Assembly: GCF_001753205.1 (NCBI RefSeq) | Contig: NZ_CP017560.1 | Location: 2,604,001 to 2,668,000, forward strand | DNA from: Sporosarcina ureilytica | Lineage (GTDB): Bacteria > Bacillota > Bacilli > Bacillales_A > Planococcaceae | DNA: 64,000 bases | Direction of reading: 5' to 3' | Part shown: positions 2,094-37,634 of the stretch, one piece after another | How the letters are laid out: every line of letters starts with the position of its first letter | How positions within the stretch are numbered: the first letter of the stretch is position 1 | The notes under the pieces: model-generated | Told to the model about the DNA's origin: nothing | Database searches by the model: none | Seen by the model: only the letters and a program-made list of their open reading frames with translations | Translations under genes and position numbers: made by a program

Positions 2094-3065
2094 TTACATT
2101 ACCTCCATCAAGACAGGAACAAGAACTGCTACAAAAGCGACACTCCAGAATACGAGGACAACTTTCCATTCAGACCAACCTGATAACTCAAAATGGTGGT
2201 GAATTGGACTCATTTTAAAGACACGTTTTCCTGTCAATTTAAAACTAATCACTTGGATAATAACGGATAATGTTTCAACAACGTACACAATCCCAATAAT
2301 GAGGAGTAACAGCTCTTGCTTGATGAGCACAGATATCATTGCAATTGCCCCACCTAGCGCAAGCGATCCCGTGTCTCCCATAAAGACTTTGGCCGGCTTC
2401 ATATTGAATAATAAAAAGCCAAGCATTGCACCTGCGACAGCAAAACAAAATAATGCAACGTCGTCTTGACCATATTGAAGCGCAAAAACACCTAATCCTC
2501 CGAAGGCAACTGTAGAAGTCCCTGCTACCAAGCCATCTAGTCCGTCCGTTATGTTGACAGCATTGGAAAATCCAACAAGCCAAAAGATTAGAAATGCAAC
2601 ATAAAAGATCCCTAAATCAAGCTTAACGTCGAGGAATGGGAGAGCGACTGTCGTTTCAAAAGGACCCATTTTAAGTAAAAAGAAAACTAAAATTGCAACA
2701 ACAATTTGTCCAATTAGCTTTTGAAGCGACGTCAATCCTAAGTTTCTTTTTAAAACAACAATAATGAAATCGTCAATAAAACCGATAATCCCAAAACCGA
2801 TTAACACAAGTAAAAGAACGATTGTTTGAGTAGTCATTACACCAAATATGTATGAAAGAATTAATGTTGAAAATACAATTGAGGTGAGAAAAATAAGACC
2901 ACCCATTGTCGGTGTTCCTGCTTTTTTTTGATGGGCTTTTGGTCCCTCTTCTCGGATACTTTGCCCAAATTTCATGCGTCTTAGAGCTGGTATAATTCCA
3001 AATCCAGAAATCGCTGAAAGTATAAACGCCACGGCAATAACCGTAGTAGTCATAGCTAATGTCAT
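2094..3065 (-). CDS. mraY: phospho-N-acetylmuramoyl-pentapeptide transferase
   Basis: MraY transfers phospho-MurNAc-pentapeptide to undecaprenyl phosphate, making lipid I at the inner face of the membrane. The frame is open from 3128, but I place the start at the ATG at 3065. It has AGAAGGAG just upstream, and the resulting 323 residues match the family length (about 324 in B. subtilis). The protein is polytopic with the signature [24 protein letters not shown] near the N-terminus, the catalytic DDF and NITDGLDGL regions, and the terminal [14 protein letters not shown] block with its histidine cluster. It sits directly upstream of murD. In B. subtilis murE would lie between spoVD and mraY; here only about 140 bases separate the two genes. 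Confidence 0.97.
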
Positions 3066-3155
3066 GATTTTTTCTCCTTCTATCTGCTGAAACAGTGACT
3101 TCACTTCATTCTGTGTCAGACTTAGCATTGAAATAAATAGTATTTAAAAAGCGGA

Positions 3156-3195
3156 GTAAAGGCCACCTAACCCCCGAGGACTTGATGGCCTTTAC
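3156..3195 (-). terminator. 10-bp perfect inverted repeat after spoVD, possible terminator or attenuator
   Basis: GTAAAGGCCA at 3156-3165 is exactly complementary to TGGCCTTTAC at 3186-3195, with a 20-base loop. Read on the minus strand it follows the spoVD stop codon and is followed by TCCGCTTTTT, a weak T-tract. It lies exactly where murE is found in related genomes. It may partly uncouple mraY-murD-spoVE from the upstream dcw genes. Confidence 0.6.
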
Positions 3196-3208
3196 AATCC
3201 CCCTTTAT

Positions 3209-22791: not shown

Positions 22792-23671
22792 TATTGCCAT
22801 CATATGGGGCCTTATCTTTCTATTCATTCTACAACCTGGCATCGCACATGAAGGAGCGGAAATCGGAGCGCGACTTTTTATAAGTGCATTACTCCCTTAT
22901 TTGCTTCCCTATATTATTTTAACGCAGTGGTTATTAAAAACTTCCGCCGCAAACACCGATAAGGCTACTTGGAAAAGATATGTGAAAGCATATATTCTAG
23001 GTTCCTTTGGGGGATTCCCAGTCGGTGCGGTCACAGTTTCTGAAATGACAAAAAGAAATGAAATATCAACAAAACAAGGCGGACTTTTATTAGCAGCTTG
23101 CCATGCACCTGGTCCAATGTTCATTATAGGGTTTGTTGGTACCGAATTATTCGGTGATATTCGTAAAGGTTGGATGTTATTAATCGCTATTCATGTCGTC
23201 AACATATTATTTTTCTTGCTTATATCCCTTTTTTTAAACTCGAAAACAAAGTTGCCCAAGGCTAATCTTCCTCCCCCAACAAAAAGGAGTGGAATTCCAC
23301 TTTTAGATGCAATAAAAGACAGTTCGAACGTCATTATTCTCGTTGCAACCACTGTCATTTTTTTCTCATCACTTGGTGCAGTTTTAGCAAATCTTGTTGC
23401 GACTACACTGGATTTCGATACAGGGATTACTCAAACCATTCTTTTATCAGTGTTTGAAATGACTGCAGGCGTCCAGGAGGCTACCGTCCATTTAAGCCAT
23501 TTTACTTTATTCCCTTTGCTCATTGCCGCAATTATTTCTGTTAACGGTTTGAGTATCCATATGCAAGTGGCCGTTATCGCAAAGTCCACTAACCTTTCGT
23601 TACGCCCGTATATTCTGGGGCGATTATGGAGCATTCTTCTCGTACCCATTGTCTTTTATTTTTTATTGTAA
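22784..23671 (+). CDS. ylbJ: YlbJ-type sporulation membrane protein (nucleoside-recognition Gate family)
   Basis: This polytopic protein of 295 residues resembles B. subtilis YlbJ, a sporulation integral membrane protein of the Gate/nucleoside-recognition class needed for spore resistance. It has an amphipathic N-terminus then LLPYLLPYIILTQWLL, the glycine-rich block GSFGGFPVGAVTVSEMTKRNEIS, CHAPGPMFIIGFVG, and six to seven further hydrophobic helices. It is roughly 100 residues shorter than the B. subtilis protein, so it may be a compact variant. Start choice is uncertain because the best ribosome site serves the leader ORF just upstream. Divergent from ylbL. Confidence 0.8.
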   Translation: MINIAIIWGLIFLFILQPGIAHEGAEIGARLFISALLPYLLPYIILTQWLLKTSAANTDKATWKRYVKAYILGSFGGFPVGAVTVSEMTKRNEISTKQGGLLLAACHAPGPMFIIGFVGTELFGDIRKGWMLLIAIHVVNILFFLLISLFLNSKTKLPKANLPPPTKRSGIPLLDAIKDSSNVIILVATTVIFFSSLGAVLANLVATTLDFDTGITQTILLSVFEMTAGVQEATVHLSHFTLFPLLIAAIISVNGLSIHMQVAVIAKSTNLSLRPYILGRLWSILLVPIVFYFLL

Positions 23672-23678
23672 AAAGTAG

Positions 23679-23718
23679 AAGGCTATCATTATATTTTTTT
23701 ACATGATAGCCTTTTTCT
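23679..23718 (+). terminator. terminator after ylbJ
   Basis: AAGGCTATCAT and ATGATAGCCTT form a perfect 11-bp stem followed by TTTTC. It separates ylbJ from the convergent coaD. Confidence 0.9.
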
Positions 23719-23798
23719 TTATGGTTTAGAAATGATAATAACTTGGGCTGTAGATAATTACATAGCTGTCGCATCTAAGCCGGCACCTTACGCTTTTG

Positions 23799-24296
<498 letters not shown>

Positions 24297-24845
24297 TCAT
24301 TTCCCATAAATTGTTAGCGCGATATTTCCATATGTATTTGTTTTTTTTAATTGGAATTCACCATAGCACGCTGATAATTTCACTGCTTTATCATGTTCAC
24401 AAATAATAAGTGCTTGTGCGGAGAGAAGATCTAGGTCTACAGCTTCCTGTGCTAGATCATAGAACTTTTCTTGTGCATAAGGAGGATCAATAAATAAAAA
24501 ATCGATTTTTTTATTTTGCTTACTTAGAAGTTTAAAAGCATTTCGGGCATCAGTTTTTTGAATATGGACTTTCTGTTCATATTGACATTTCTCACTATTT
24601 GAACGAATGATTTCGCAAGCCGCTCGATTTTTCTCAAAAATAAACGCCTCGTCTGCCCCCCTAGACAGCGCTTCTAGTGACAGTGCACCACTTCCTCCAA
24701 ATAACTCTACAACAACCCCCCCATCAAAAAAAGGCCCGATTATATTGAACATAGATTCTTTTACTTTATCTGAAGTCGGACGAGTATTTTCGCCCTTTAA
24801 AGATTTTAAAGGTAACCCCCTGCGTTCTCCTGCTATGATTCTCAT
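24297..24845 (-). CDS. rsmD: 16S rRNA (guanine(966)-N2)-methyltransferase
   Basis: RsmD methylates G966 of 16S rRNA. The 182 residues show MRIIAGERRGLPLKSLKG with TRPTSDKVKESMFNII, the SAM-binding VVELFGGSGALSLEALSRGA, and the catalytic DPPY motif in FLFIDPPYAQEKF. It corresponds to ylbH. It lies between coaD and the stalk-domain protein, which ends 13 bases upstream. Confidence 0.96.
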   Translation of the reverse strand: MRIIAGERRGLPLKSLKGENTRPTSDKVKESMFNIIGPFFDGGVVVELFGGSGALSLEALSRGADEAFIFEKNRAACEIIRSNSEKCQYEQKVHIQKTDARNAFKLLSKQNKKIDFLFIDPPYAQEKFYDLAQEAVDLDLLSAQALIICEHDKAVKLSACYGEFQLKKTNTYGNIALTIYGK

Positions 24846-24858
24846 TCAACTCTCTCCT

Positions 24859-26292
24859 TCACTTAAGTATTGCGATTGGCGTAATTTCAATAACCTTTGA
24901 TGTTTTCTCAATTTCAAGTTGGAATATCCTTATCATGGCAGTCTCTACAAAATAAAACTCATCTTCTATCCGTTCAAATGGCATAGATGCAGTAGCGTAT
25001 CTTTTTTGATTATAAACATAAAAATGTTCTCGCATCGGAAAGCGGTACTTTCTCGAAGCATTTTCGATGTATAGAGAGTGATCATTCACAGTAACTGTAT
25101 AACCTAGTCTTTTCATCACTTCCGAAATTGGATAATACACTTGACTATTCATGACAATCGCATGCTTCTCTAACTTCCCCGTTCCTGAAACAACAATATC
25201 TTGAGGACTTTCCAGTATAAAGGGGTATGGTTGCCCATCAAGTTGACTATTTTTCGTGAAAAAAGATGTCCGGTATCCTGTTACTTGTTCAAAAACTTGG
25301 TTTAACACACCCGCATTTAATACTTGGCCACGTCTTGCTTTAATTTCAACTGTGAGTTTTTCTATTTCCGCCGAAGTTAGCTGACTCTGTAAAACCTTAT
25401 AGGCATTGCGAGATGACTCAGCGCCCATTTCCTCATTTAAAATAAAGGAGGCTGCAATTTCTACAGCAAATGTATCTTCGGAAGATGTTATATACAGTTT
25501 ATCAATTTGATTTAAAATATATTGGTGTAAGGCTATATTCATTTGTTTGTTTTCGGTGATAATAAAGCGATTTGAAGTGATTCGTTCATGTCCTTCATTT
25601 AAAATAATCGTTGAATGCGGAGCTCCTATTATGTTCATCAGGTTTTCATTTTTTTGAATTCCTTCTGGATGTTCCAACATATTCGAACCATACATCGTTA
25701 CACGATCACTTGAATAAACAATATTTTGTCTTTTCTCCTGCCAGTATATATCGGTTACTGCACCTTCTCCAGTAAATAGCGTATAATCGATAAGGTCTAA
25801 TCGCTTATTTCCCACTTCTCGTAAACCAGTTACCCACATGCCACCCCTATTCATTTCATCGGTAAGATGAATAACGGTGGTATTTGGATTTGCATTATGT
25901 AATGTAGCAAAAACTGATATAAACAAATTCCCCTTGACTGTAGAATCGTTTTTAGGCATCACATACGAAATAGATTGTCTCGTTTCCTCGCCTTCGGTAA
26001 AAGCGGTTACATGCTCATCCAGTCGGAAACAAGTATCCTCCCCTTCTACATGACATGTACGATACTCACTCTCTACCGGCCAAACAATTTCCAGACGATT
26101 TTGTGGTAAGTTACTAAAGTGATGGCGAATGATTAATTCATCATGTCTATTAATAATTTCAATTTCCTGATCGTATGTAAATTGATTGCCATTGCCGTTA
26201 GTAGTTGAATCGTTTGCTTCTTGATAATGCACATAGAGTAGAAGTGCGTTAATCAACAAGAGCAATACGAGTGCTGTTGTCATTTTTTTCAA
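24859..26292 (-). CDS. membrane-anchored stalk-domain protein of unknown function
   Basis: I do not recognise a characterised orthologue. The best start is the TTG at 26292 (GGAGG seven bases upstream), giving 477 residues with a signal anchor (about 4-22) and an extracytoplasmic body. The C-terminal 90 or so residues (NSQVYYPISEVMKRLGYTV... and a second half ending KVIEITPI) have the pattern of the copper-amine-oxidase-like N-terminal, or stalk, domain common in Bacillales cell-surface proteins. The central part is rich in beta-type segments and has no catalytic motif I can name. It starts a run with rsmD and coaD and probably shares their transcript, but it is not part of the B. subtilis ylb set. 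Confidence 0.65.
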   Translation of the reverse strand: MKKMTTALVLLLLINALLLYVHYQEANDSTTNGNGNQFTYDQEIEIINRHDELIIRHHFSNLPQNRLEIVWPVESEYRTCHVEGEDTCFRLDEHVTAFTEGEETRQSISYVMPKNDSTVKGNLFISVFATLHNANPNTTVIHLTDEMNRGGMWVTGLREVGNKRLDLIDYTLFTGEGAVTDIYWQEKRQNIVYSSDRVTMYGSNMLEHPEGIQKNENLMNIIGAPHSTIILNEGHERITSNRFIITENKQMNIALHQYILNQIDKLYITSSEDTFAVEIAASFILNEEMGAESSRNAYKVLQSQLTSAEIEKLTVEIKARRGQVLNAGVLNQVFEQVTGYRTSFFTKNSQLDGQPYPFILESPQDIVVSGTGKLEKHAIVMNSQVYYPISEVMKRLGYTVTVNDHSLYIENASRKYRFPMREHFYVYNQKRYATASMPFERIEDEFYFVETAMIRIFQLEIEKTSKVIEITPIAILK

Positions 26293-26416
26293 GTACACAC
26301 CTCCACCTATGCCCACTTCCAACTCGTTTCAAATAAAGTTTTCATTATTTATGTAATAAGGAAAGTTCATCGGCTTTTTTATGACTATCCAAACTAGCCT
26401 AACCAATCCCCGTTCT

Positions 26417-26689
26417 TTAAAGACCGGCTTTATAATCATATTCCTTCGCTTTATCTGGTTTAGCATTTTCATAAGTTGTCTTTAAAAAAGGGCGATAAGA
26501 AGGTACGACTCTTTTTACCGATGAAAGTTGCCTCACTTTTTTCATAACAGTTTCAACGTCTTCCTGATTACAATAAAGGACTACATATTTCATTTTTCTT
26601 GATATATAATGGACATGTCCATATTTTCTAAGTGACTTTGCTTGTCTTAAATTATGCAAATAAATAATTATTCCTTGTCGACTAATCAT
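26417..26689 (-). CDS. ylbG: UPF0298 (DUF2129) protein YlbG
   Basis: This is a small cytoplasmic protein of 90 residues, conserved across Bacilli, of unknown function. The family signature is clear: [44 protein letters not shown] and [24 protein letters not shown]. It keeps its ancestral place in the ylb series. Confidence 0.92.
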
Positions 26690-26810
26690 CTTTTTTCCCT
26701 CTTTTCCTACACACTACAATACCATATGTCTGAAAAGAGCTGCAACTACAATAAAAAACTATACATGGCATTTCATTGTTATGAATAAACTTTACTCGAA
26801 CGATTTATTC

Positions 26811-26870
26811 ATCAATGATCATCGAGGATTATCAATAATCATCGATAATCCCAGATAATCCCAGATGATC
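26811..26870 (+). repeat. six tandem degenerate 10-bp repeats upstream of the GDPD-like gene
   Basis: Six consecutive 10-mers read ATCAATGATC, ATCGAGGATT, ATCAATAATC, ATCGATAATC, CCAGATAATC and CCAGATGATC. Every unit ends in (A/G)AT(C/T), so the motif recurs once per helical turn. The array ends 25 bases before the start of the next gene, in its presumed promoter/leader. It could be a cooperative operator or intrinsically bent DNA. Confidence 0.7.
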
Positions 26871-26894
26871 ACGGTTAACAAAGGAGGAACTATC

Positions 26895-27806
26895 TTGAGA
26901 AGAAAAATAAATGTCGCTCTGACCGTTGGAGCTGCGGGCATTGCTGCCTGGGCTACTTCTAAAGTTGTAACTAAGTCAATCCCTCGCACCGAAAAGAAGG
27001 CATTACAATTTGAAAAACCAATCGTCTTAGCTAACCGTGGTGGCCTACTAGAAGCGCCTGAACATACGAACGCAGCTTTTACGCATGCAGCCTCGCTTGG
27101 CGTCCATGGTTTTGCAGTTGATATCCGTTTAACAAAAGATGAGCAGATTGTCGTATTTCATGATGAATATGTGAATCGAACTACAAATTTCGAAGGGAAA
27201 TTAGCAGATTATACGTTGAGCGAATTAAAAGAAGCCGACGCTGGCTATCACTTTGAAGATAAACTCGGAGAATGTTCTTATAGAGGGAAAGGTGAAACAG
27301 TCTTATCTCTTAAAGAGCTACTAGAGCAATTTCCCCACCTGTTTATTTGTATTAACATTCAAGAAACGCCTGATACATATGAGGGAAGCTTAATTCCTTC
27401 AAAGTTATGGTATCTTATCGAAGAATTGGGTGCCGAAGACCGCCTTGCTGTTACAAGCGCTTATGATGAGCAAGTTGATCGATTTAATTTGTATGCACAA
27501 AACCGGATTGCTATCGGAGCGGGAAATCGTGAAATCAAAAAAGCCTATACTACTTACACAAGCCAATTCGGACATCTTTACCAACCAAATACTGATTTGT
27601 TTTGTTGTCCCCAAAAGATGGGGGTATTCTCAATCGGGAGAGTTGGATTTATCAATTTCTTATCGAAATTAAATATTCCTATCTATTTTAAAGGTGTCGA
27701 TAAACCTGATAATATTACATCTCTTATCAATGCAGGCGCTGCTGGCTTTATTACTGACCAACCATCCGTCATTATGAAAACAATCCAAACTCACGTAGTG
27801 GAATAA
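26895..27806 (+). CDS. GDPD-fold protein with degenerate active site
   Basis: The fold is that of glycerophosphodiester phosphodiesterases. The start is the TTG at 26895 (AAAGGAGG seven bases upstream), giving 303 residues with a hydrophobic N-terminal segment (about 7-20), so it is probably membrane-anchored or secreted. Family landmarks are VLANRGGLLEAPEHTNAAF, the block FAVDIRLTKDEQIVVFHDE and ETVLSLKELLEQFP. In active GDPDs the first motif is HR and the second ExD. Here they are NR (Asn47) and AxD (Ala74-Val-Asp76), while HD (89-90) remains. Loss of one catalytic His and one metal-binding Glu suggests an inactive or repurposed protein. It carries its own terminator. Confidence 0.8.
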   Translation: MRRKINVALTVGAAGIAAWATSKVVTKSIPRTEKKALQFEKPIVLANRGGLLEAPEHTNAAFTHAASLGVHGFAVDIRLTKDEQIVVFHDEYVNRTTNFEGKLADYTLSELKEADAGYHFEDKLGECSYRGKGETVLSLKELLEQFPHLFICINIQETPDTYEGSLIPSKLWYLIEELGAEDRLAVTSAYDEQVDRFNLYAQNRIAIGAGNREIKKAYTTYTSQFGHLYQPNTDLFCCPQKMGVFSIGRVGFINFLSKLNIPIYFKGVDKPDNITSLINAGAAGFITDQPSVIMKTIQTHVVE

Positions 27807-27810
27807 TTAA

Positions 27811-27849
27811 AAAATGCCGGACTTACGAAAATGTAAGTTCAGCATTTTT
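27811..27849. terminator. bidirectional terminator between the GDPD-like gene and ylbF
   Basis: AAAATGC..ACTTAC pairs with GTAAGT..GCATTTTT around a GAAAAT loop. A/T runs are on both sides and the flanking genes converge. Confidence 0.88.
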
Positions 27850-27851
27850 AG

Positions 27852-28295
27852 TTAAGCCGAGCAAGAACAGCCTCCACCAGTACCGCAGCCGCCTCCGCAA
27901 GATGAACCTGTAAAGAAACCATTTCCTGTCGGCACTTTTACTGATTCCGAAACCGTCTTTCCAATAATCATTCCGATTTCATCGAATAGTTGTTGCACAT
28001 CGTTTTCTGCAAGACGAAGCGCAGCTACTTGTTCATTTAAGTCCAACTCTCTTTTACGCAATCGGATATCTTTCATCACAGTTTGATAATCTGGATGGTA
28101 CCGCCCAAACCGTTGCACCTCTTCGTAACGTTCTTTTAGTCTGGTAAATTCTTTTATCGATTTTACAAGAACATCATTCGAATAAACAGCTTCCCGGGCT
28201 TTATTATATTCTTCAACGACCTCAGACGAAGCCATGATTTTAATAAGTTCTTCCGCATGTTCGATGATGGTTAGCCATTCATCAGTGATTAGCAT
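27852..28295 (-). CDS. ylbF: YlbF (RicF) regulatory factor
   Basis: YlbF is part of the YlbF-YmcA-YaaT (Ric) complex, which carries Fe-S clusters and promotes RNA processing, competence, biofilm formation and sporulation in B. subtilis. The start is the ATG at 28295 (GGAGGGG upstream), giving 147 residues. It has a helical core with RYEEVQRFGRYHPDYQTVMKD and ELDLNEQVAALRLAEND, the KVPTGNGFF segment, and a C-terminal Gly/Cys tail (SCGGGCGTGGGCSCSA) with four cysteines like those implicated in cluster binding. Confidence 0.94.
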   Translation of the reverse strand: MLITDEWLTIIEHAEELIKIMASSEVVEEYNKAREAVYSNDVLVKSIKEFTRLKERYEEVQRFGRYHPDYQTVMKDIRLRKRELDLNEQVAALRLAENDVQQLFDEIGMIIGKTVSESVKVPTGNGFFTGSSCGGGCGTGGGCSCSA

Positions 28296-28365
28296 TAGAT
28301 ACATCCCCTCCACTCTCCCTTAATCATAACAGATTAATTTGAGTTCGTGAATGGACAAGGCTTAA

Positions 28366-29814
28366 TTATATATTCGCCAATAAGGCCTGCTCTGCTATTT
28401 CAACGTCAGAAAATGGGAGTATTTCCTCCCCAATATGTTGGGTTTTTTCATGTCCTTTCCCTGCAATTAAAACGATATCCCCCGCTGACGCATTGGCAAT
28501 TGCACGTTGAATCGCTTTAGCTCTATCGATTTCTACTTGGACATTGGGACTTTCCGAGACAAATCCTGCTGTAATATCTTGAATAATGGCTAAGGGATTT
28601 TCATTTCTTGGATTATCAGAAGTTACCAAGACAGTAGAAGAATAGAATGCCGCGATTTCCCCCATCTCTTTTCTTTTTCCTTTATCTCGATTCCCGCCAC
28701 AGCCAAAAACAGTAATAATCCTCTCTCGACATTCTTTTGCGAGTGATTGTAATACAATTTTTAATGCATCAGGCGTATGCGCATAGTCGATAATAACTGT
28801 TACGCCATTACGCTCTATCCTTTGCATTCGGCCCTCAGGTAATGATAATAAACGTGTATTAGTTAAAATATCCTTCAATGGAAAAGAGAGGATGTGCAAG
28901 GCGCTTATTGCTGCTAATGCATTCATTTGATTAAACATTTCAAAAACCGGGAGTGTTAATTCATAGTCATAAGAAGATATTTTTACTTGATAAGCTCCGT
29001 TTTCATTGATTAGTCGGATGTCTGCCGTCTCTCCCGTGCCGAAAAAAGTAATCGGTTTCGTAGCATTTTTTATCATGTCAATACATGCATCATCATCACG
29101 ATTCACAACAAGATGTTTTGCCATGTGAACTAGCTTTTGCTTTGCTTGAATATATGCTTCTTTACTTCCGTGTTCATCATAATGGTCAGCACCTACATTT
29201 AGTAAAATACCAATATCAATCTCACAATCCTCCAACCGATTGGTGGATAGTCCGAGCGAAGAAGCTTCCATGACGATATGCGTAATACCCTTTTCCTCAC
29301 AATCTCGTAGTAACGGATGAAGATACTCCGCAGGTAACGTGGTCATTGATGGAATATCGTAGGTAGCCCGCACGCCATCAATAAATACGCCTAACGTTCC
29401 AATAACAGCCGCACGCACCCCTAAACCACTTAATAGTTGACCAATAAAACGGCTTACCGTCGTCTTGCCATTTGTTCCTGTTACTGCAATTATTGTTAAC
29501 CGTTCTGACGGATTCCCGGATAATCTTGCACTCGCATGCGATAAAAACTTTCTGCAATCCGGAACGATGATCAACGGAGTATCACAAGATATATCAATGG
29601 ATAGCGGCCTATCAAGTACAATTGCCGCTGCTCCCAGCCGAATTGCCTCTTCTATATATGAAATCCCGTCCACTTTCTCTCCTTTCCTTGCGATAAATAG
29701 GAACCCAGGTTTGACAGCTTTAGAGTTTTCGGTAACGCCCACCACTGGAACACTATATTTTGCACCAGTAAACGTACACGGCCAGTCTTTTAATAACTCT
29801 TGTAAAAGTAGCAC
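28366..29814 (-). CDS. murE: MurE-type UDP-MurNAc-tripeptide ligase with DAP-specific motifs, outside the dcw cluster
   Basis: This is a Mur ligase of the MurE class, which adds the third residue to UDP-MurNAc-L-Ala-D-Glu. The frame is open to 29916, but the GTG at 29814 has AAGGGGAG just upstream and gives the normal MurE N-terminus (VLLLQELLKDWP) and 482 residues. It has the P-loop GTNGKTT (about 113-119), the DHYDEHG region and the lysine that is carbamylated in relatives (AYIQAKQKL). The specificity loop reads DNPRNENP (about 400-407), followed later by GKGHE. DNPR with GKGHE is the meso-diaminopimelate signature; lysine-adding MurE lacks the Arg. murE is missing from its usual dcw position at 3.1 kb. 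Whether this is the only MurE or a spore-specific paralogue cannot be decided from this window. Confidence 0.85.
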   Translation of the reverse strand: MLLLQELLKDWPCTFTGAKYSVPVVGVTENSKAVKPGFLFIARKGEKVDGISYIEEAIRLGAAAIVLDRPLSIDISCDTPLIIVPDCRKFLSHASARLSGNPSERLTIIAVTGTNGKTTVSRFIGQLLSGLGVRAAVIGTLGVFIDGVRATYDIPSMTTLPAEYLHPLLRDCEEKGITHIVMEASSLGLSTNRLEDCEIDIGILLNVGADHYDEHGSKEAYIQAKQKLVHMAKHLVVNRDDDACIDMIKNATKPITFFGTGETADIRLINENGAYQVKISSYDYELTLPVFEMFNQMNALAAISALHILSFPLKDILTNTRLLSLPEGRMQRIERNGVTVIIDYAHTPDALKIVLQSLAKECRERIITVFGCGGNRDKGKRKEMGEIAAFYSSTVLVTSDNPRNENPLAIIQDITAGFVSESPNVQVEIDRAKAIQRAIANASAGDIVLIAGKGHEKTQHIGEEILPFSDVEIAEQALLANI

Positions 29815-29966
29815 TCGACTCCCCTTCCCGAACATTTTGTCATGAAGCGAATATATTATTGAGAAAGAATCGATTAAAGCTTTAGTTGAGAAATTGAATA
29901 AGAATTGATTTAACACCTATTCAGTTCCGACAAGATGAATTCCTTCTGAATTGAAGTTTCAATTTA

Positions 29967-29994
29967 TCGTATGAAAATGATGTTTCGAATGACA
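29967..29994 (-). promoter_or_regulatory. possible mother-cell (sigma-E/sigma-K-like) promoter of the murE-type gene
   Basis: On the minus strand CATACGAT (29974-29967) matches seven of eight bases of the sigma-E -10 consensus CATACAAT, and CATACGATA fits the sigma-K -10 CATANNNTA. A partial -35, GTCATTCG, lies 12 bases upstream at 29994-29987; this spacing is shorter than typical. It is suggestive only. Confidence 0.35.
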
Positions 29995-30016
29995 CGAAGA
30001 AAGTTGGGGGACTTTT

Positions 30017-30748
30017 ATGATTGTGCAAAAATTTGGCGGAATCGCCATGCAAAATGAAGAAATGAGAAACTTCTGTATGAACCACATACAAGATGGCATT
30101 AAACAGTATAAAAAAATCGCCGTCGTCGTATCTGCAATTGGTCGATTAGGGGACCCATATGCAACGGACAGCCTAATTAATCTTTCCGAAGCCTTTGCAT
30201 CGGATTACGTCGCTCGAGACCTTGTAGCGTCCTGTGGTGAACTTATAGCATCTGCTGTCCTGTCAGCCGAATTGCATCAGTTCGGGGTATCCAATACAGT
30301 TCTCCACGGCAAACAAACAGGGATATTAACAACAGGCAATTTTGGTGACGCTTCTATTGATTCCATTGACACATCCATCATTCTTAAATCCTTTGAACAA
30401 GTTGATTGTGTAATCATTCCAGGTTTCCAAGGAATGGATAAGTCAGGACACGTGATGACTTTAGGGAGGGGAGGAAGTGATTTAACAGCGGTTGCACTGG
30501 CTGATTCTCTCAACGCTTCTCACGTAGAATTTTTTAAAGATGTTCCCGGGGTATTAACAGGAGACCCTGACTTTGTTTCGGACTATGATAAATACGACTT
30601 TCTAAGTTTCGACGAATTTCTTAATCTACTTAATGGCGAAAATACAATCATTCAAAAAAGGGCAGCAGTACTTGCGAAGGAAAAAGCGATTCCATTATAC
30701 GTTAGAGGAATCGCTAGTACAGAAACAGGGACTTGGATTGCAACATAA
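30017..30748 (+). CDS. aspartokinase catalytic domain without ACT regulatory domain
   Basis: This 243-residue protein covers only the amino-acid-kinase domain of aspartokinase (aspartate to aspartyl phosphate, the first step to DAP, dipicolinate, lysine, threonine and methionine). Visible motifs are IVQKFGG (K5), the glutamate in SCGELIAS, VIIPGFQG, MTLGRGGSDLTAVALA and FFKDVPGVLTGDPD. It stops at PLYVRGIASTETGTWI, where normal enzymes (about 400 residues) continue into two ACT domains, and no ACT remnant lies downstream. The loop after KFGG is IAM instead of the usual TS/SS. It has GGGGGA upstream of the ATG and is divergent from the murE-type gene. Lack of ACT predicts insensitivity to end-product inhibition. 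Confidence 0.82.
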   Translation: MIVQKFGGIAMQNEEMRNFCMNHIQDGIKQYKKIAVVVSAIGRLGDPYATDSLINLSEAFASDYVARDLVASCGELIASAVLSAELHQFGVSNTVLHGKQTGILTTGNFGDASIDSIDTSIILKSFEQVDCVIIPGFQGMDKSGHVMTLGRGGSDLTAVALADSLNASHVEFFKDVPGVLTGDPDFVSDYDKYDFLSFDEFLNLLNGENTIIQKRAAVLAKEKAIPLYVRGIASTETGTWIAT

Positions 30749-30769
30749 AATTTTTCAATTCGTAAACAG

Positions 30770-31861
30770 TTATCTTTGTCGCTTACTATCAACAGTTGAT
30801 TTGATGAATGTTTGAGTGAAATAATTATTATACGCGCCAGTTCCTAAATGAGTGAAGTCTTTATCTAACATTACTTTTCGGTGATCTGTTGAGTTCATCC
30901 AACCGTGCACCGCTTCTATTGCATCGACGTAATCGAATGCGGTGTTTTCACCTGCTTTTTTATGTTCAATAGAGGCATTCTTCAGTCGACTGGACAAATT
31001 CTCTTCTTTATTCATGTCTTCTTGCAAGTTATTTTCCAATGCAAGAAACTCACTATGTTTATGCGCAAAGCTGCTTAAGAAATAATCGCCTTGTAATTCC
31101 GATACTCGATGTTTCACTCGCTGTATATTGGTTAACTCAAAGATTTGCCGCTCAATTGTCCTATCTACTTCAATTTGTAATGTAGAGGACGGGGGTTTGG
31201 AAATAAGCAATTCACCCATATACGTCATTTCATATGGTTGATGAAGCACTAATGTAGCAGGATCAATAAATCGTACACCTGCAAGTCCATTACTCTCTTT
31301 ATCAATATACAGCTGTGCAAATAAATCCTTATAAATAATTAAAGGGCGGCTATGTAGATCTTCGCTATTTAACGAAAACGTATAAATATTATCTGCAACA
31401 TTCACATCTACTTCGGAGCCTACAATTGTAAAACGATAAATATCACTTATATTTTGACCGATCTCAAATGGTGCAACATTCGAAGTCTCATCGGCTGTAT
31501 AAAGCTGATTAACAATTCCATCGCGTGTAACACCAACCATGAGTCTTTGGTCTTTCTCATATATCCACCAATCATAATGATAATTAGATGGTTCGATACG
31601 CTTCGGCTTACCCAACACTTCAATTAAAGTGTCTACAGGCTCTCCAACATAAATAGAGATACCTTCCTCTGGACGGGCTGACTGTGGAATCGCTGAGCCT
31701 ACCCCTTTATTCTCAACTGGTACCGCAGTCCCTTGCTTAACGGGTGCCTCTAGCGGTTCATTTTCTTTTACGCGCTCTCCCGTAATATAGAAAACGAGAA
31801 GAACAGCAATTAGTAGGATAGCTATTCTAAATATATTTTTCAACCAAATCCCTGCTTTCAA
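30770..31861 (-). CDS. ylbC: membrane-anchored CAP-domain protein (YlbC-like)
   Basis: The 363 residues begin with a signal anchor (about 8-27) and a proline/glutamate-rich linker. An N-terminal CAP-associated domain (about 65-205) follows, with EVLGKPKRIEPSNYHYDWWIY. The C-terminal CAP/SCP domain (about 225-350) begins IFELTNIQRVKHRVSEL; it contains the CAP histidines in AHKHSEFLA and ends with GENTAFDYVDAIEAVHGWMNSTDHRKVMLD. The domain order and position in the ylb series match YlbC. CAP proteins of Bacilli are extracytoplasmic; molecular function is unknown. Confidence 0.85.
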   Translation of the reverse strand: MKAGIWLKNIFRIAILLIAVLLVFYITGERVKENEPLEAPVKQGTAVPVENKGVGSAIPQSARPEEGISIYVGEPVDTLIEVLGKPKRIEPSNYHYDWWIYEKDQRLMVGVTRDGIVNQLYTADETSNVAPFEIGQNISDIYRFTIVGSEVDVNVADNIYTFSLNSEDLHSRPLIIYKDLFAQLYIDKESNGLAGVRFIDPATLVLHQPYEMTYMGELLISKPPSSTLQIEVDRTIERQIFELTNIQRVKHRVSELQGDYFLSSFAHKHSEFLALENNLQEDMNKEENLSSRLKNASIEHKKAGENTAFDYVDAIEAVHGWMNSTDHRKVMLDKDFTHLGTGAYNNYFTQTFIKSTVDSKRQR

Positions 31862-31971
31862 CTAAATTTAAACAATCGTTCTATGTATCCTACAATTTTG
31901 TTAGTTTTTCTCCAGTAAAATGATATCTTTAAATAATGCCATCATCTATTCCCATCGACACAATGTTGTCA

Positions 31972-32000
31972 TTGCAACTATCATGAAATTGTTCTATTAT
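31972..32000 (+). promoter_or_regulatory. promoter of the YugN-like gene
   Basis: TTGCAA (31972-31977) and TATTAT (31995-32000) with a 17-bp spacer, about 50 bases before the start codon. Confidence 0.6.
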
Positions 32001-32051
32001 GGATAGGTATAGTGTATTTTCTGGATAATCGATAAAAGGAGGATTCAATCT

Positions 32052-32420
32052 ATGTATATTGAAAATACTGGCATTGAAAATATCGTTTCGGATTTATTCA
32101 TACTTGACGAAATTATGCTACAACACGATTTAATTCGTGGTGGACAATGGGACTACGAGCGCGTTACATATGATAAAAAGTATACGCTTAAAGAAGGTAC
32201 TTTTTACTTACGCGTTTTCGGCTTCGCAACAGAAGGCGATGTCGACGCACGTGACGCAATTATCCAACTTAAAAAACCTGTGATTGGGAAGCACTACTAC
32301 CCATTTGGCGTAGAATATGGTGAAGACGAACATTTCCCTAAAAGCCTAATCAAAGATTGTGAAACAACACTTAAGAAAGTTTTAGTTGCATTAGAAAAAC
32401 ATAATTTAAAGACAGTTTAA
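32052..32420 (+). CDS. YugN-like family protein
   Basis: This is a soluble protein of 122 residues with AAAGGAGG near the ATG. The central part, GGQWDYERVTYDKKYTLKEGTFYLRVFGFA, with HYYPFGVEYGEDEHFP further on, fits the YugN-like family of Bacillales, small proteins of unknown function. It is a single-gene unit with its own promoter and a strong terminator, transcribed divergently from ylbC. No catalytic residues stand out. Confidence 0.75.
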   Translation: MYIENTGIENIVSDLFILDEIMLQHDLIRGGQWDYERVTYDKKYTLKEGTFYLRVFGFATEGDVDARDAIIQLKKPVIGKHYYPFGVEYGEDEHFPKSLIKDCETTLKKVLVALEKHNLKTV

Positions 32421-32429
32421 TTTTTCGAT

Positions 32430-32460
32430 AACCGAAGAACCTCAAGTTCTTCGGTTTTTT
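32430..32460 (+). terminator. terminator after the YugN-like gene
   Basis: AACCGAAGAAC and GTTCTTCGGTT form a perfect 11-bp stem with a five-base loop and a trailing T-run. Confidence 0.95.
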
Positions 32461-32560
32461 AGTAAATAAAAGTGTATCCTCATACATACTTAAAAATATC
32501 TATTCAAATCTAAATAATTGGTTATAATTAAGGTAACAAGAATTACTGGAGGAATGGTCA

Positions 32561-33619
32561 TTGTCCAAATGGTTTACTAAACGTAATTTCATCATATTAC
32601 TAAGTGTTATATTCATTATACTAATTTTCCTATATATTATCCCAGTTTCCTTACCAATTATTTTTGCGCTTCTTACAGCATTACTAATCGATCCCCTTGT
32701 TAGACTCGTAGAAAAGCAATTTAAATGGAATCGTAAACCAGCTGTTATCTCAGTTTTCATCTTTATTTTAGCAATTATCTCTTCGCTATTATATTATACT
32801 GTTACTCGTCTTATAGGAAAGATAATCGACTTTACGCACGCAGCTCCTGGTCATTTCAATACATTATCCGGCTTTTGGATTGATATGCAAAATAAACTAT
32901 TCCAATATACAGCGGGCATGCCAACAGAAGTTATTGAATCCATACAGGAATCGTTCAAAAATATATTTGACTCGATAAGAATAGCCATCCTTGAATTGTT
33001 GAGCTATGATAAAATTACTTCACTCCTAACTGACGTGCCTAACTTTCTTGTTAGTTTAATCGTCTTCATAATTGCACTGTTTCTTTTTATGCTAGAATTA
33101 CCAGAACTTAAGAAATTATTATTTAAGTATCTCACAAAATCTACAGAAAAAAAAGTACGATTTATGGTGACAAAACTAAATTCAATTCTATTTGGATTTG
33201 TGAAAGCGCAATTTCTTGTGAGTCTAATTATTTTCGCTGTTACACTTGTTGGACTCTTATTAATAAAACCTAAATACGCCATCATTATGTCCGTCATCAT
33301 TTGGATCATTGATCTTATCCCTATATTGGGGTCAATCATTATTCTCGCGCCATGGGCATTATATTATTTCATAAGTGGCGATGTGGGAACAGGAACCCAA
33401 CTAACAATTCTAGCAATTATTCTTCTTGTGATTCGTCGAACAGTCGAACCAAAAGTAATGGGGTCCCAAATTGGTCTAAAACCATTACCAACCCTAATTG
33501 CAATGTTCATCGGCTTAAAACTTATGGGCTTTCTTGGTTTCTTTATTGGTCCGCTTGTTGTTATTTTATTTACTACAGCACGCGAAGCAAACATCATTCG
33601 CGTTAATTTCAAAATTTAA
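32561..33619 (+). CDS. AI-2E family transporter (PerM-type permease)
   Basis: This polytopic membrane protein of 352 residues, with a TTG start behind GGAGGAATG, belongs to the AI-2E/PerM family. The N-terminus has a helical hairpin (about 10-28 and 30-45). A long extracytoplasmic amphipathic stretch (about 80-155) is followed by five or six helices, including the family segment IIWIIDLIPILGSIIILAPWALYYF and the C-terminal RRTVEPKVMGSQIGLKPLPTLIAMFIGLKLMGFLGFFIGP. Bacillus relatives include YtvI and YueF; substrates are mostly unknown, and some members are Na+/H+ antiporters. It converges on ctaG. Confidence 0.85.
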   Translation: MSKWFTKRNFIILLSVIFIILIFLYIIPVSLPIIFALLTALLIDPLVRLVEKQFKWNRKPAVISVFIFILAIISSLLYYTVTRLIGKIIDFTHAAPGHFNTLSGFWIDMQNKLFQYTAGMPTEVIESIQESFKNIFDSIRIAILELLSYDKITSLLTDVPNFLVSLIVFIIALFLFMLELPELKKLLFKYLTKSTEKKVRFMVTKLNSILFGFVKAQFLVSLIIFAVTLVGLLLIKPKYAIIMSVIIWIIDLIPILGSIIILAPWALYYFISGDVGTGTQLTILAIILLVIRRTVEPKVMGSQIGLKPLPTLIAMFIGLKLMGFLGFFIGPLVVILFTTAREANIIRVNFKI

Positions 33620-33643
33620 TAGGGACAATCGCTTTATAAGACT

Positions 33644-33674
33644 AAAAAGTAGAGGAATTCTCCCTCTACTTTTT
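33644..33674. terminator. bidirectional terminator between the AI-2E transporter and ctaG
   Basis: AAAAAGTAGAGG pairs with CCTCTACTTTTT around a short loop, with A- and T-runs at the two ends; the genes converge here. Confidence 0.9.
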
Positions 33675-33688
33675 ATTTATTCCTATTT

Positions 33689-34612
33689 TTAACTGTTTGC
33701 TCGTAATTCTTGATGTTTTAATAACTCTTGTCTCGTAATTTCATCAGCATTATTACGTTCTTCATTTGCCCACGTAAAGAAGATTTTCCCGATAACAAAT
33801 ATATAAATCATTTCCTGTGCAACCTTCATTAAAATACCACCAAGCTGTTGGTCATATAAAGAAGACATACTTGTAAACATTTCAGGTCCGGAGATTCCAA
33901 GACCAGATAGTCCCGCTAGCGTTCCAGGCGGTACACAGAGTGCCATGGCTTGCAACCATGCATCTCCGTTTGTATATGTATCGTACACAGCTACGTCCGC
34001 AAAAATGATTAATGTACAAGCAGGTGTGATTAGGATAGCACTTAATACAACGTATCCAATTTTCTTTAAACCGTGTAATTTTGGTTGTCCTTCCAGTGTA
34101 TTCACAAGTGGCCACCATAGAAATATCGCCGACATGAAAATAGTAGCAGTAAACATTCCATGCAAAATTAAGTTTAACTTAACATTGTCAAGTATTAACG
34201 GGTAATGATAAGCTGAAAATAAAAAACTAAACATAAATAAACTAATAAGCGGCTTTGTGAAGAGGCCAAAGAGTACATCGATAATCTTCACTTCCAATAA
34301 CCTTGCCCATACCCAATTTGGTATCCCCATAATCAATAACGGCGCAACACCTAATAATAGAAACGCCATTTGAGTCATGTGTACGGAGAATAAGATATGC
34401 CCCAACAAATCGACCGGAGAACCTTTTAAAATATAAAGAAGTATCATTCCACTTAAAAAAAAGATTACTTGCTTACGCGTTAAAGCGGTGGAATTTTCAA
34501 ACTTATGACGCCATTTAACTGTGATTAAAAAATAAATCAGTACTACCACCACTAATGACAAGAAATACCACGGACTCCATAATGCACGAAATCCAAATAT
34601 ACTTAAAGGCAT
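33689..34612 (-). CDS. ctaG: cytochrome c oxidase assembly factor CtaG
   Basis: CtaG of the Bacillus type is a multi-spanning membrane protein (307 residues, seven or so helices) needed for active caa3 oxidase. Markers are FGFRALWSPWYFLSL at the N-terminus, SVHMTQMAFLLLGVAPLLIMGIPNW with a conserved His, FSAYHYPLILDNV, and PACTLIIFADVAVYDTY. It lies downstream of ctaF but beyond a terminator hairpin, so it probably has some separate expression. Confidence 0.94.
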   Translation of the reverse strand: MPLSIFGFRALWSPWYFLSLVVVVLIYFLITVKWRHKFENSTALTRKQVIFFLSGMILLYILKGSPVDLLGHILFSVHMTQMAFLLLGVAPLLIMGIPNWVWARLLEVKIIDVLFGLFTKPLISLFMFSFLFSAYHYPLILDNVKLNLILHGMFTATIFMSAIFLWWPLVNTLEGQPKLHGLKKIGYVVLSAILITPACTLIIFADVAVYDTYTNGDAWLQAMALCVPPGTLAGLSGLGISGPEMFTSMSSLYDQQLGGILMKVAQEMIYIFVIGKIFFTWANEERNNADEITRQELLKHQELRANS

Positions 34613-34708
34613 TCACCAACACTCCTTTATAACAGTCTCTGTTCATATTATAAAGCAATACAAACCTATAACTCAATGGATGAACTATGACAAATTCAAT
34701 GAATAATA

Positions 34709-34746
34709 AAAACTCGTACAGAAGTAGATTCTGTACGAGTTTTTTA
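34709..34746. terminator. terminator after ctaF
   Basis: AAACTCGTACAGAA pairs with TTCTGTACGAGTTT, flanked by A- and T-runs. On the minus strand it ends the ctaCDEF message ahead of ctaG. Confidence 0.9.
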
Positions 34747-34769
34747 TGCGACCTATTTAACTATACAGT

Positions 34770-35132
34770 TTATACGTATAGTGGGTTCCACCAAACGATT
34801 GTAACGAATGTAAGAACGATTAAGAATGCTAGTAATGCTCCAGTAAACATGAACATTTCTGGTATTCCGTGCCCTTTTTCATTCATGTGCATAAAGTAGT
34901 AAAGTTGTAATCCGACTTGCACAGCAGCAAACAACAGAATGACTGGAATTACATAGAACTTAGAGAACCCGATTACATCCGCATTTGAAGCTAGTACGAT
35001 CGAAAATGAAGTGAGTGTCAAGAATATCATCATTGAGAACATAATAACTTGAGCACGCATTCCTTTTCTAGCGCGAATTCTTGAAATTTCTACTTCACTT
35101 GGTGTTTTTTCATAAATTTCGATGTCCGCCAT
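34770..35132 (-). CDS. ctaF: cytochrome c oxidase subunit IV
   Basis: This is the small membrane subunit of the caa3 oxidase: 120 residues with three hydrophobic helices (about 29-48, 58-80 and 90-112) and the family segment VGLQLYYFMHMNEKGHG. It is cotranscribed one base after ctaE. Confidence 0.93.
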   Translation of the reverse strand: MADIEIYEKTPSEVEISRIRARKGMRAQVIMFSMMIFLTLTSFSIVLASNADVIGFSKFYVIPVILLFAAVQVGLQLYYFMHMNEKGHGIPEMFMFTGALLAFLIVLTFVTIVWWNPLYV

Positions 35133-35133
35133 A

Positions 35134-35760
35134 TTAACCTACCACTCCCATCAAATAGACTGCAGTGAAGATAAATACCCAGATGACGTCAATGAAATGC
35201 CAGTATAGTGAAAATGTATAATATTTTGTTGCGTTATACAAGTTCAATCCACGCTTTGCATTTCTGAAAATGAGTAACGTAATCCAAACGAGTCCAATTG
35301 CTACGTGGAAACCATGCGTCCCTACAAGTGTATAGAAAGATGAACTAAACGCACTATTCCCGTAAGTGAAACCTAGTTGTACGTAGTGAGTGAACTCATA
35401 CACTTCAAGCATCAAGAAACCAAGACCTAGAAATGCTGTAATTCCTAGCCAGAGTTGCATCTTCCTGAAGTTGTAATTTCTCAGATGATACATTGCATAA
35501 ACACTTGTTAATGAAGATGTTAATAATAGCATCGTCATAACAAATACAAGCGGTAATTCATAAAGCTCTTGTGTCGAAAACTCGAGACCAGCTGGCCCTT
35601 TGTTTTTTAATGCTAAGTATGTTGCAAATAGCGTAGCAAACAAAATTACTTCTCCGCCAAGGAAAAGCCAGAAACCAACAAATTTATTTTTCGCCTCAAA
35701 TGTAGCTGTTTCCGGGTTATCAGGCCAAGTCTCAGGGGTGAATTTCTTATTCAAATCCAT
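35134..35760 (-). CDS. ctaE: cytochrome c oxidase subunit III
   Basis: The 208 residues form five membrane helices. Typical blocks are NKFVGFWLFLGGEVILFATLFATYLAL, which carries the conserved Glu, FTHYVQLGFTYGNSAFSSSFYTLVGTHGFHVAIGLVWI, and the ending HFIDVIWVFIFTAVYLMG. Its first codon overlaps the ctaD stop by one base, so the two are translated in tandem. Confidence 0.96.
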   Translation of the reverse strand: MDLNKKFTPETWPDNPETATFEAKNKFVGFWLFLGGEVILFATLFATYLALKNKGPAGLEFSTQELYELPLVFVMTMLLLTSSLTSVYAMYHLRNYNFRKMQLWLGITAFLGLGFLMLEVYEFTHYVQLGFTYGNSAFSSSFYTLVGTHGFHVAIGLVWITLLIFRNAKRGLNLYNATKYYTFSLYWHFIDVIWVFIFTAVYLMGVVG

Positions 35761-37634
35761 TATTTTTGACCCCCTTCACGCTTCATATCCCTTAAGATTT
35801 CTTCTTTAGGAACATAGTATCCTAAATCATCTTTTACAGAACGAATTGACATTGTAACAAAAGTCCAGAACAGACCGAACACTAGAAGTGATAGTCCCCA
35901 AGACGTTTCCAAACGGAACATTGCTCCGAATCCTGCCATAAATAATCCAAATGACATTAAGAACGGAATAATTGAACCATGTGGCATATGAATATCTTGT
36001 AGCGGAACTGCCGGTGTAACACCTGATTTGTTACCTTCTGACTTTTCAATCCATACAGTATCCAATCCACGCACAAGTGGTGTTTGTGGGAAGTTATAGT
36101 AAACCGGTGGTGATTGAGTTGCCCACTCAAGTGTACGACCATCGCCCCACGGGTCATTTCCGACACGCTCATTCTTAACTGTTGTGATGATAATGTTGAT
36201 CACAAGAACAATTACACCAACCGACATAAAGAATGCACCAACTGTACTAATATAGTTTGCTGCATTCCAACCCTGTCCATCCATGTACGTAAATACGCGT
36301 CGTGGCATTCCCCAGAATCCTAACCAGTGTTGGATAAGGAATGTCATATGGAATCCGATAAAGAATGTCCAGAATGTTAACTTTCCAAGACCTTCGCTCA
36401 ACATTGTACCGAACATTTTCGGCCACCAGTAGTGAGTAGCAGCTAAAATACCGAGTACGACACCACCAACAATTACATAGTGGAAGTGAGCGACGATGAA
36501 GTATGAGTCATGCAATTGGTAATCAAGTGGTGCTGCACCTTGCATAATTCCTGTTACTCCACCCATTACGAATGATGGGATAAATGCGATTGCATAGAGC
36601 ATTGGTACTGTAACTTTAATGCTACCGCCCCACATCGTCAGTAACCAGTTAAAAATCTTCACACCCGTAGGTACGGCAATTGCCATCGTCGCAACTGCGA
36701 AAATTGCGTTTGCTGTTGACCCTAAACCAACCGTGAACATGTGGTGAGCCCAAACCATAAATCCTAAGAAACCAATAAGTACTGTTGCAAAAACCATTGA
36801 AGTATATCCGAACAAACGCTTTCTCGCAAATGTTGGGAATATTTCAGAGAAAATACCGAAAGCCGGTAAGATTAAAATATAAACTTCAGGGTGACCAAAT
36901 ATCCAGAAAATATGCTCCCAAATAATTGTGTTTCCACCCATTGTATGGTCGAAGAAATTACCACCAAATAGTCTATCGAATGTTAAGAAGAACAACCCAA
37001 TTGTAAGTGGTGGGAATGCGAATAAAATCATTGCCGATGCGATAAACGTAGTCCATGTGAATAGTGGCATACGCATATACGTCATTCCCGGTGCACGCAT
37101 GTTAATGATCGTTACAAGGAAGTTAATCCCCGACATTAACGTACCTCCACCTGCAATTTGTAAACCGATAGAGTAAAAGTCAACACCATGTCCTTCAGAC
37201 GTGATTGCTAATGATGTATAAGAAGTCCAACCAGCATCAGGTGCTTGCCCCATAAACCATGAAATGTTTAAGAACAATCCACCGAAGATAAACATCCATA
37301 ACCCTAGTGAGTTAATGAATGGAAACGCTACGTCACGTGCACCGATTTGCAGTGGCATAATCGCGTTCATAAAACCGAATAATATAGGCATGGCTGCAAG
37401 GAAAATCATCGTCGTTCCATGCATCGTAATTAACTGGTTAAATAACCCAGCACTAATCAGGTCGCTATTTGGGTGAAGAAGTTGAATACGAATAAGTACT
37501 GCTTCAATTCCACCGAGTACGAAGAAGAATCCTCCACCTAGCAAATAAAGGATACCTATCTTCTTATGGTCAACTGTCGTCAACCAGTCCCATAGCCAGG
37601 CGCCAAAGCCTTTCTTTTGAGCAACTGAACTCAC
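35760..37634 (-). CDS. ctaD: cytochrome c oxidase subunit I (caa3 type)
   Basis: This is the catalytic haem-copper subunit, 624 residues and about 14 helices. The low-spin haem ligand is in ITMHGTTMIF. CuB and cross-link residues are in FWIFGHPEVYILILPAFG and AHHMFTVG, and the high-spin haem region is AHFHYVIVGGVVLG. The extended C-terminal part is typical of Bacillus caa3 oxidases. It lies between ctaC and ctaE in the standard order. Confidence 0.98.
   Translation of the reverse strand: MSSVAQKKGFGAWLWDWLTTVDHKKIGILYLLGGGFFFVLGGIEAVLIRIQLLHPNSDLISAGLFNQLITMHGTTMIFLAAMPILFGFMNAIMPLQIGARDVAFPFINSLGLWMFIFGGLFLNISWFMGQAPDAGWTSYTSLAITSEGHGVDFYSIGLQIAGGGTLMSGINFLVTIINMRAPGMTYMRMPLFTWTTFIASAMILFAFPPLTIGLFFLTFDRLFGGNFFDHTMGGNTIIWEHIFWIFGHPEVYILILPAFGIFSEIFPTFARKRLFGYTSMVFATVLIGFLGFMVWAHHMFTVGLGSTANAIFAVATMAIAVPTGVKIFNWLLTMWGGSIKVTVPMLYAIAFIPSFVMGGVTGIMQGAAPLDYQLHDSYFIVAHFHYVIVGGVVLGILAATHYWWPKMFGTMLSEGLGKLTFWTFFIGFHMTFLIQHWLGFWGMPRRVFTYMDGQGWNAANYISTVGAFFMSVGVIVLVINIIITTVKNERVGNDPWGDGRTLEWATQSPPVYYNFPQTPLVRGLDTVWIEKSEGNKSGVTPAVPLQDIHMPHGSIIPFLMSFGLFMAGFGAMFRLETSWGLSLLVFGLFWTFVTMSIRSVKDDLGYYVPKEEILRDMKREGGQK

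Follow-up and report, generated by a model that had tools for sequence, protein, structure and literature searches.

Two genes standing back to back in a region of the Sporosarcina ureilytica genome are the subject of this analysis. The stretch of DNA analysed (the window) comprises 64,000 nucleotides, positions 2604001-2668000 of the complete genome, which is a single contig of 3.44 Mb. The first gene, murE2 (28366-29814, minus strand), encodes a UDP-MurNAc-L-Ala-D-Glu ligase of 482 aa with the DNPR and GKGHE motifs of the predicted meso-diaminopimelate (meso-DAP) type and a GTG start at 29814. The second (30017-30748, plus strand) encodes a DapG-like aspartokinase of 243 aa that, by Pfam and NCBIfam, consists of an AA_kinase domain only and lacks ACT domains.

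That the murE2 interval holds a MurE-class ligase, as a sequence-only reading of the DNA had claimed, is confirmed by the motifs and by the model scores: MurE2 scores 442 bits with the MurE family model TIGR01085 (cut-off 257.3) and 444 bits with the DAP-ligase model NF001126 (cut-off 373), and D401, N402, R404 and the GKGHE stretch, the residues expected of a meso-DAP enzyme, are invariant in 21 MurE2 rows. The longest open reading frame of the gene is longer (28366-29916, minus strand, 516 aa). Since most relatives begin aligning further in, several carry stop codons in the N-terminal extension, and GGGAAGGGG, a strong ribosome-binding site, precedes the GTG at 29814, the real protein is probably the one of 482 aa. 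The start and ribosome-binding site together (cgggaaggggagtcgaGTG, 29812-29830, minus strand) have a similar layout in other loci of the genus. The alignments were made with 28366-29817, one codon longer than the GTG start.

The complete genome contains exactly two MurE proteins above the family cut-off, and the lysine-like second enzyme to which the sequence-only reading had pointed is one of them. This protein, MurE1 (2697912-2699393 of the genome, 64 kb from MurE2), has DDPR in its motif, with the L-Lys MurE of Staphylococcus aureus as its nearest match; its gene lies beside prfC, as in S. aureus. Compared with solved structures, MurE1 matches S. aureus 4C12 best, at 438 bits, with the next structure at 314, whereas MurE2 is remote from 4C12 (164 bits) and scores 231 with the E. 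coli DAP MurE and 243 with that of M. tuberculosis; with this score and with DNPR in its motif, MurE2 falls outside the Staphylococcus L-Lys type. The two types are separated consistently in the alignment, the motif being DDPR in 18/18 rows of MurE1 (S. aureus itself has DNPA), DN[PCAS]R (DNPR, DNCR, DNAR or DNSR) in 21/21 rows of MurE2 and DNPR in 9/9 rows of outgroup MurE. Besides MurE2, no further MurE with DNxR was found among those examined in the host family. The DNPR residues of E. coli MurE are required for the carboxyl group of DAP (PMC3829189). The change from Asn to Asp in the MurE1 motif would place a negative charge at this site. MurE2 thus resembles the meso-DAP enzymes (E. coli 1E8C, M. 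tuberculosis 2WTZ and the housekeeping MurE of Bacillaceae and Listeria) in ligase family, in DNPR and GKGHE and in a near full-length match; it differs from the housekeeping enzymes in lying outside the dcw cluster, in being a second MurE, in its tie to spore formers within the host family and in forming a deep clade.

The tie to spore formers was drawn from a survey of 261 genomes from 19 genera of the host family (genera are numbered g1 to g19, g1 being that of the window strain), using thresholds of E<=1e-80 for MurE2, 1e-100 for MurE1, 1e-42 for the kinase and 0.001 for spoIVA; the MurE2 and spoIVA sets were compared by reading the genome rows, and related genomes within the survey are not independent. 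MurE2 occurs in 193 of the 261 genomes, in 12 genera, with one match per genome. A spoIVA match occurs in 197, namely the same 193 and four genomes of g4 (G012-G015), and exceeds the model cut-off in 192; G244, which has MurE2, shows a partial spoIVA match only (6.6e-34). None of the 64 genomes that lack a spoIVA match has MurE2, and neither do the four of g4. MurE2 tracks spoIVA across the family, in support of the proposed tie to sporulation. In g4 itself, where murE2 was not found, three spoIVA hits are weak or fragmented (E 5.6e-10 and 1.3e-37, each in two pieces, and 1.5e-50) and one is long (5.4e-141); this genus may be losing sporulation now.

MurE1 follows a different distribution. It is present in 237 of the 261 genomes, in 17 genera, including all six genera that lack a spoIVA match; in the genomes without spoIVA, MurE1 is present and MurE2 absent. 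In a tree of MurE1 (18 rows, g4 not included) the non-spore label requires five changes, and since three of these are forced by supported branches, the loss of MurE2 along with sporulation has been repeated. It could be argued that the co-occurrence, and the adjacency to the kinase described below, simply reflect the shared ancestry of spore formers and that MurE2 acts elsewhere than in the cortex, for instance in recycling, in the coat or in a natural product; related genomes are not independent, and some genomes carry extra MurE-like paralogues of unclear role. This explanation is very improbable given the repeated joint loss, the single MurE2 match in each genome, the intact DNxR and GKGHE in 21/21 rows and the lack of another DNxR MurE among those examined.

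Where the wall is of L-Lys type, a DAP-adding enzyme could also act during growth, and MurE2 might then be a second vegetative or stress MurE producing a mixed Lys/DAP wall, with no tie to sporulation. We consider this highly unlikely: MurE2 is absent from the 64 genomes without a spoIVA match, which belong to several lineages, and a mother-cell-type box lies upstream of the gene (see below). Furthermore, the congener Sporosarcina highlanderae, which carries both MurE types, is described as an endospore former whose wall analysis gave peptidoglycan of type A4alpha, L-Lys-L-Ala-D-Asp (PMC10628120).

The 24 genomes without MurE1 (19 of g14, four of g4, and G247) all carry a divergent MurE instead, as found in a search of 40 chosen genomes; MurE2 is therefore accompanied in every genome by one or more MurE of vegetative type. 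The divergent ligase that takes the place of MurE1 in g14, g4 and G247 was collected from seven genomes (loci L186-L192, from G133, G139, G128, G140, G015, G012 and G247, in that order), and the four sequences that were read (L186, L188, L190 and L192) have ITATNGKTS and lack both DNPR and GKGHE. An aldehyde dehydrogenase close to this ligase in L192 resembles, by eye, one near MurE1 in L020, and the divergent gene may thus have taken over the original site of murE1; as a guess, its product is perhaps an L-ornithine MurE. MurE-like paralogues of two further kinds (L193-L202) are found in some genomes of g14, g4, g19, g5, g13 and g12, and genome G000 carries on contig C1 a pair of Mur-ligase-like proteins, each about 500 aa long and with the P-loop GTCGKT, that lie 9 kb from each other, at 2144405-2145313 (L004) and 2153531-2154439 (L006).

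The neighbouring kinase, described by the sequence-only reading as reduced to its catalytic domain and divergent from the ligase, proved to be so. Pfam finds only AA_kinase (PF00696, 123.6 bits) in it, while LysC of the same genome has ACT domains as well. Its best NCBIfam model is PRK08210, which we take to be the DapG type, but it scores 243.7 bits against a cut-off of 474 and matches positions 3-246 of 405, and it is thus not a full-length DapG with ACT domains. As an aspartokinase it appears intact in the residues K5, S39, T50, E75, R151, S154 and D155, presumably aspartate and phosphate contacts, which are invariant in 13 orthologues from six genera and in LysC. The 13 orthologues stop near a GT-W-I stretch, at which LysC continues into its ACT part. 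In the survey the kinase was found in 111 genomes of six genera, with open frames of 237-318 aa in all 111 rows, a length that leaves no room for the ACT domains of a full aspartokinase. Other aspartokinases are also present in the window strain: its five AA_kinase genes are taken to be, from size, sequence and neighbours, LysC, a ThrD/YclM-like aspartokinase, ProB, PyrH and the ACT-less kinase.

The nearest known counterpart of the kinase is DapG, the aspartokinase I of the dpa (spoVF) operon of B. subtilis, which it resembles in best NCBIfam model and in pathway step; it differs in lacking the C-terminal ACT part, in scoring below the cut-off and in standing beside murE2 instead of in the dpa operon. 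In B. subtilis dapG sits between asd and dapA. Here the dipicolinate operon has the order dpaA-dpaB-asd-dapA, a single base separates asd from dapA, and dapG is absent. Full-length DapG above the cut-off of 474 bits, which is strict, was found in none of the 261 family genomes and in one of 14 control genomes, with B. subtilis among the five controls that respond. Four matches to NF006068 below its cut-off, fetched from genera without the kinase, were rejected as DapG; all four lie in a lysC-uvrC-sdh locus and are LysC. Of the genes in the dpa operon (L253:3357-6760), dpaB is normal, while dpaA encodes a short, divergent protein of 257 aa that scores 86 bits where the cut-off is 261.

By coordinates, the kinase gene and murE2 are divergent neighbours in 110 of the 111 genomes that have the kinase; in the exception, G215, an assembly of 290 contigs, they fall on separate contigs. 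The pair is therefore kept as neighbours in relatives, as anticipated. In the MurE tree the six MurE2 genera that lack the kinase group together in a single clade (support 100/100, nine rows), which suggests that the kinase was lost there once. It is reasonably likely that the kinase feeds the DAP pathway free of feedback inhibition. Freedom from lysine inhibition is the weaker part of the reading, and its one ground is the missing ACT domains. Alternatively, MurE2 may be a sporulation DAP ligase while the kinase is not feedback-free: it could take the ACT beta-subunit of LysC in trans, serve mainly dipicolinate synthesis, or be a remnant with weak activity or a regulatory role. Regulation in trans is favoured by the separate beta-subunits of type-II aspartokinases, and the kinase is absent (E 1e-42) from six of the 12 MurE2 genera. 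Moreover, the orthologues have K[FY]GG[IV]A in place of KFGGTS, and the TD ahead of the DP loop is mostly KD; with KFGGTS so changed, reduced activity is possible. Set against this are the invariance of the seven residues named above, the adjacency to murE2 and a conserved promoter-like box of the kinase's own, recognised post hoc, so that the alternative is possible but falls short of an even chance.

The promoter candidates lie between the two genes. Mother-cell promoters have the -10 sequence CATAnnnTA for sigma-K and CATACAnT for sigma-E. A mother-cell-type candidate for murE2 is found at 29965-29995 on the minus strand, composed of GTGTCA (29995-29990), a spacer of 16 nt and CATACGATA (29973-29965). 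Upstream regions of 102 loci were taken, of which 11 had no N-terminus recognisable by the pattern and seven more no start, leaving 84. Of these 84 regions, 76 have CATAnnnTA, the sigma-E/K-type -10, in the 160 bp ahead of murE2, against a mean of 4.1 and a maximum of 11 in shuffles; the remaining eight (one of g2, seven of g12) deviate by one base, with CATACGATG or CATACGCTG. In g14, all of nine additional loci carry CATACGATA upstream of murE2 (14 loci were given, of which nine fit the search pattern and one is a g4 locus of another MurE). The form GTG[AT]C[AG] stands 14-17 nt upstream of the CATA box in 57/84 regions, and CATAnnnTA was found upstream of murE1 in 0/16. Upstream of spoIVA, examined in eight genomes and with no shuffles, CATAnnnTA occurs near the start in five, two of them as CATACGATA, and the other three have a CATA box ending in TG; the region upstream of dpaA, used as a positive control, gave no clean result.

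A facing candidate for the kinase lies at 29831-29858 on the plus strand, with AACA (29831-29834), 15 nt and AATATATTA (29850-29858). The strict box is found upstream of the kinase in 39 of 63 loci against a shuffle mean of 3.0, and with the pattern loosened post hoc the element lies within 150 nt of the kinase start in 59/63 (shuffles 0.9). The four misses at this distance include the window, whose kinase box appears only when 200 nt are searched. Here the element partly overlaps the murE2 leader, and part of its conservation may therefore serve murE2. When start sites are predicted 8 nt past the boxes (56 of the 63 loci were long enough for spacing and 53 have both boxes), those of murE2 and the kinase lie -1 to +8 nt apart in 22 loci from five genera, and -33 to +73 in g1. 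Wide overlap of the two transcripts is thereby ruled out for the 22 loci; since the predicted starts there nearly coincide, each polymerase would have to cross the promoter of the other.

Taken together, these data make it very probable that MurE2 is a meso-DAP ligase dedicated to sporulation and acting for the spore cortex, although several observations weigh against the reading. The top structure match of MurE2 is the lysine/D-lysine MurE of T. maritima, at 264 bits, and in the tree MurE2 is a deep clade of its own outside the housekeeping DAP MurE of other Bacillales. The motif arginine is retained in MurE1 too (DDPR), and the A409R change in S. aureus MurE did not confer DAP activity (PMC3829189), so that the motif alone is insufficient. 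With regard to the promoter, when counts are made from the start of the longest open frame CATAnnnTA precedes murE2 in only 15/20 and also occurs at controls, namely ylbG (5/18), the gene at 24859-26322 (3/10), ylbC (3/20) and ylbF (2/20); the kinase has it in 6/12 and the other neighbours range from 0/20 to 5/18. A -35 of the form nACn at a spacing of 15-17 nt is present in 40/84 murE2 regions, a fit to sigma-K in part of the genera. Finally, the kinase is missing from 82 of the 193 MurE2 genomes, and is therefore a common and not an obligatory partner. The wider proposal, that the pair supplies DAP and DAP-type precursor for sporulation, is supported in its main part by the two MurE types, the co-occurrence with spoIVA and the adjacency.

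The surroundings of the pair are conserved. On one side lies the gene at 30770-31861 (minus strand, CAP_assoc_N and CAP domains), which we take to be ylbC, and on the other side of murE2 lies ylbF (27852-28313, minus strand, Com_YlbF); each is found in this position in 20/20 fetched loci. The pair thus sits in the ylb series, as had been noted. The order ylbC-murE2-ylbF is kept in these 20 loci from 12 genera, whether the kinase is present or absent in between, with extra open frames between murE2 and ylbF in L062 (one) and L070 (two); frames below 150 aa without a match were left out of the maps. No Rfam family exceeds its gathering score at 23000-36000. The dcw cluster of the window comprises mraZ, rsmH, genes for PBP2X-like and SpoVD-like penicillin-binding proteins, mraY and murD. 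Its mraY and SpoVD-like genes (2094-5104, minus strand) are separated by a gap of only 80 bp, so that there is no murE in it, in agreement with the sequence-only reading. The possibility that MurE2 is a dcw murE that has been displaced was ruled out by its own long branch, outside the Bacillales housekeeping MurE.

We propose the following scheme, in which substrate choice, expression, timing, compartment and relief from feedback are inferred. During growth, MurE1 would make the L-Lys precursor of the vegetative wall. In the sporulating mother cell, promoters of sigma-E/K type would turn on murE2, and probably the neighbouring kinase too. The kinase, lacking the ACT domains through which aspartokinases are shut off by lysine, threonine or DAP, would phosphorylate aspartate and thereby direct carbon into DAP (and dipicolinate) synthesis. 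MurE2 would make UDP-MurNAc-L-Ala-D-Glu-DAP and the mother cell would export DAP-type lipid II for the cortex, with lysine meanwhile staying the third residue of the vegetative wall. More broadly, we incline slightly to the view that sporulating members of the family run two wall chemistries, the choice of Lys or DAP being set by a MurE switch under the sigma cascade, and that an ancestral module of murE2 and a decapitated DapG with facing promoters replaced the dapG of the dpa operon to give a lysine-proof DAP supply, the kinase being lost once in one clade.

The compartment and timing in this scheme are drawn from the style of the promoters and from earlier biochemistry: in the 1970s Linnett and Tipper reportedly described a sporulation-specific DAP-adding activity of the Lys-walled Bacillus sphaericus, known from extracts, and MurE2 would be like it in predicted activity, timing and compartment. 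None of the open-licence papers among the matches listed assigns a gene to that activity in its title or abstract opening, and this is weak evidence of novelty since it covers open-licence papers and those parts of them only.

If the reading is correct, a gene would be given to the sporulation-specific DAP-adding activity and to a two-wall chemistry known for decades, and a developmental switch of peptidoglycan chemistry would operate through the swap of one ligase. Why spores require DAP in their cortex, an old question, would become directly testable via murE2. Natural pairs of MurE whose choice of third residue probably differs (DN against DD in the motif) would be available for mapping specificity, as would a natural ACT-less aspartokinase, and in the surveyed genomes MurE2 would serve as a marker that separates spore formers from non-spore formers.

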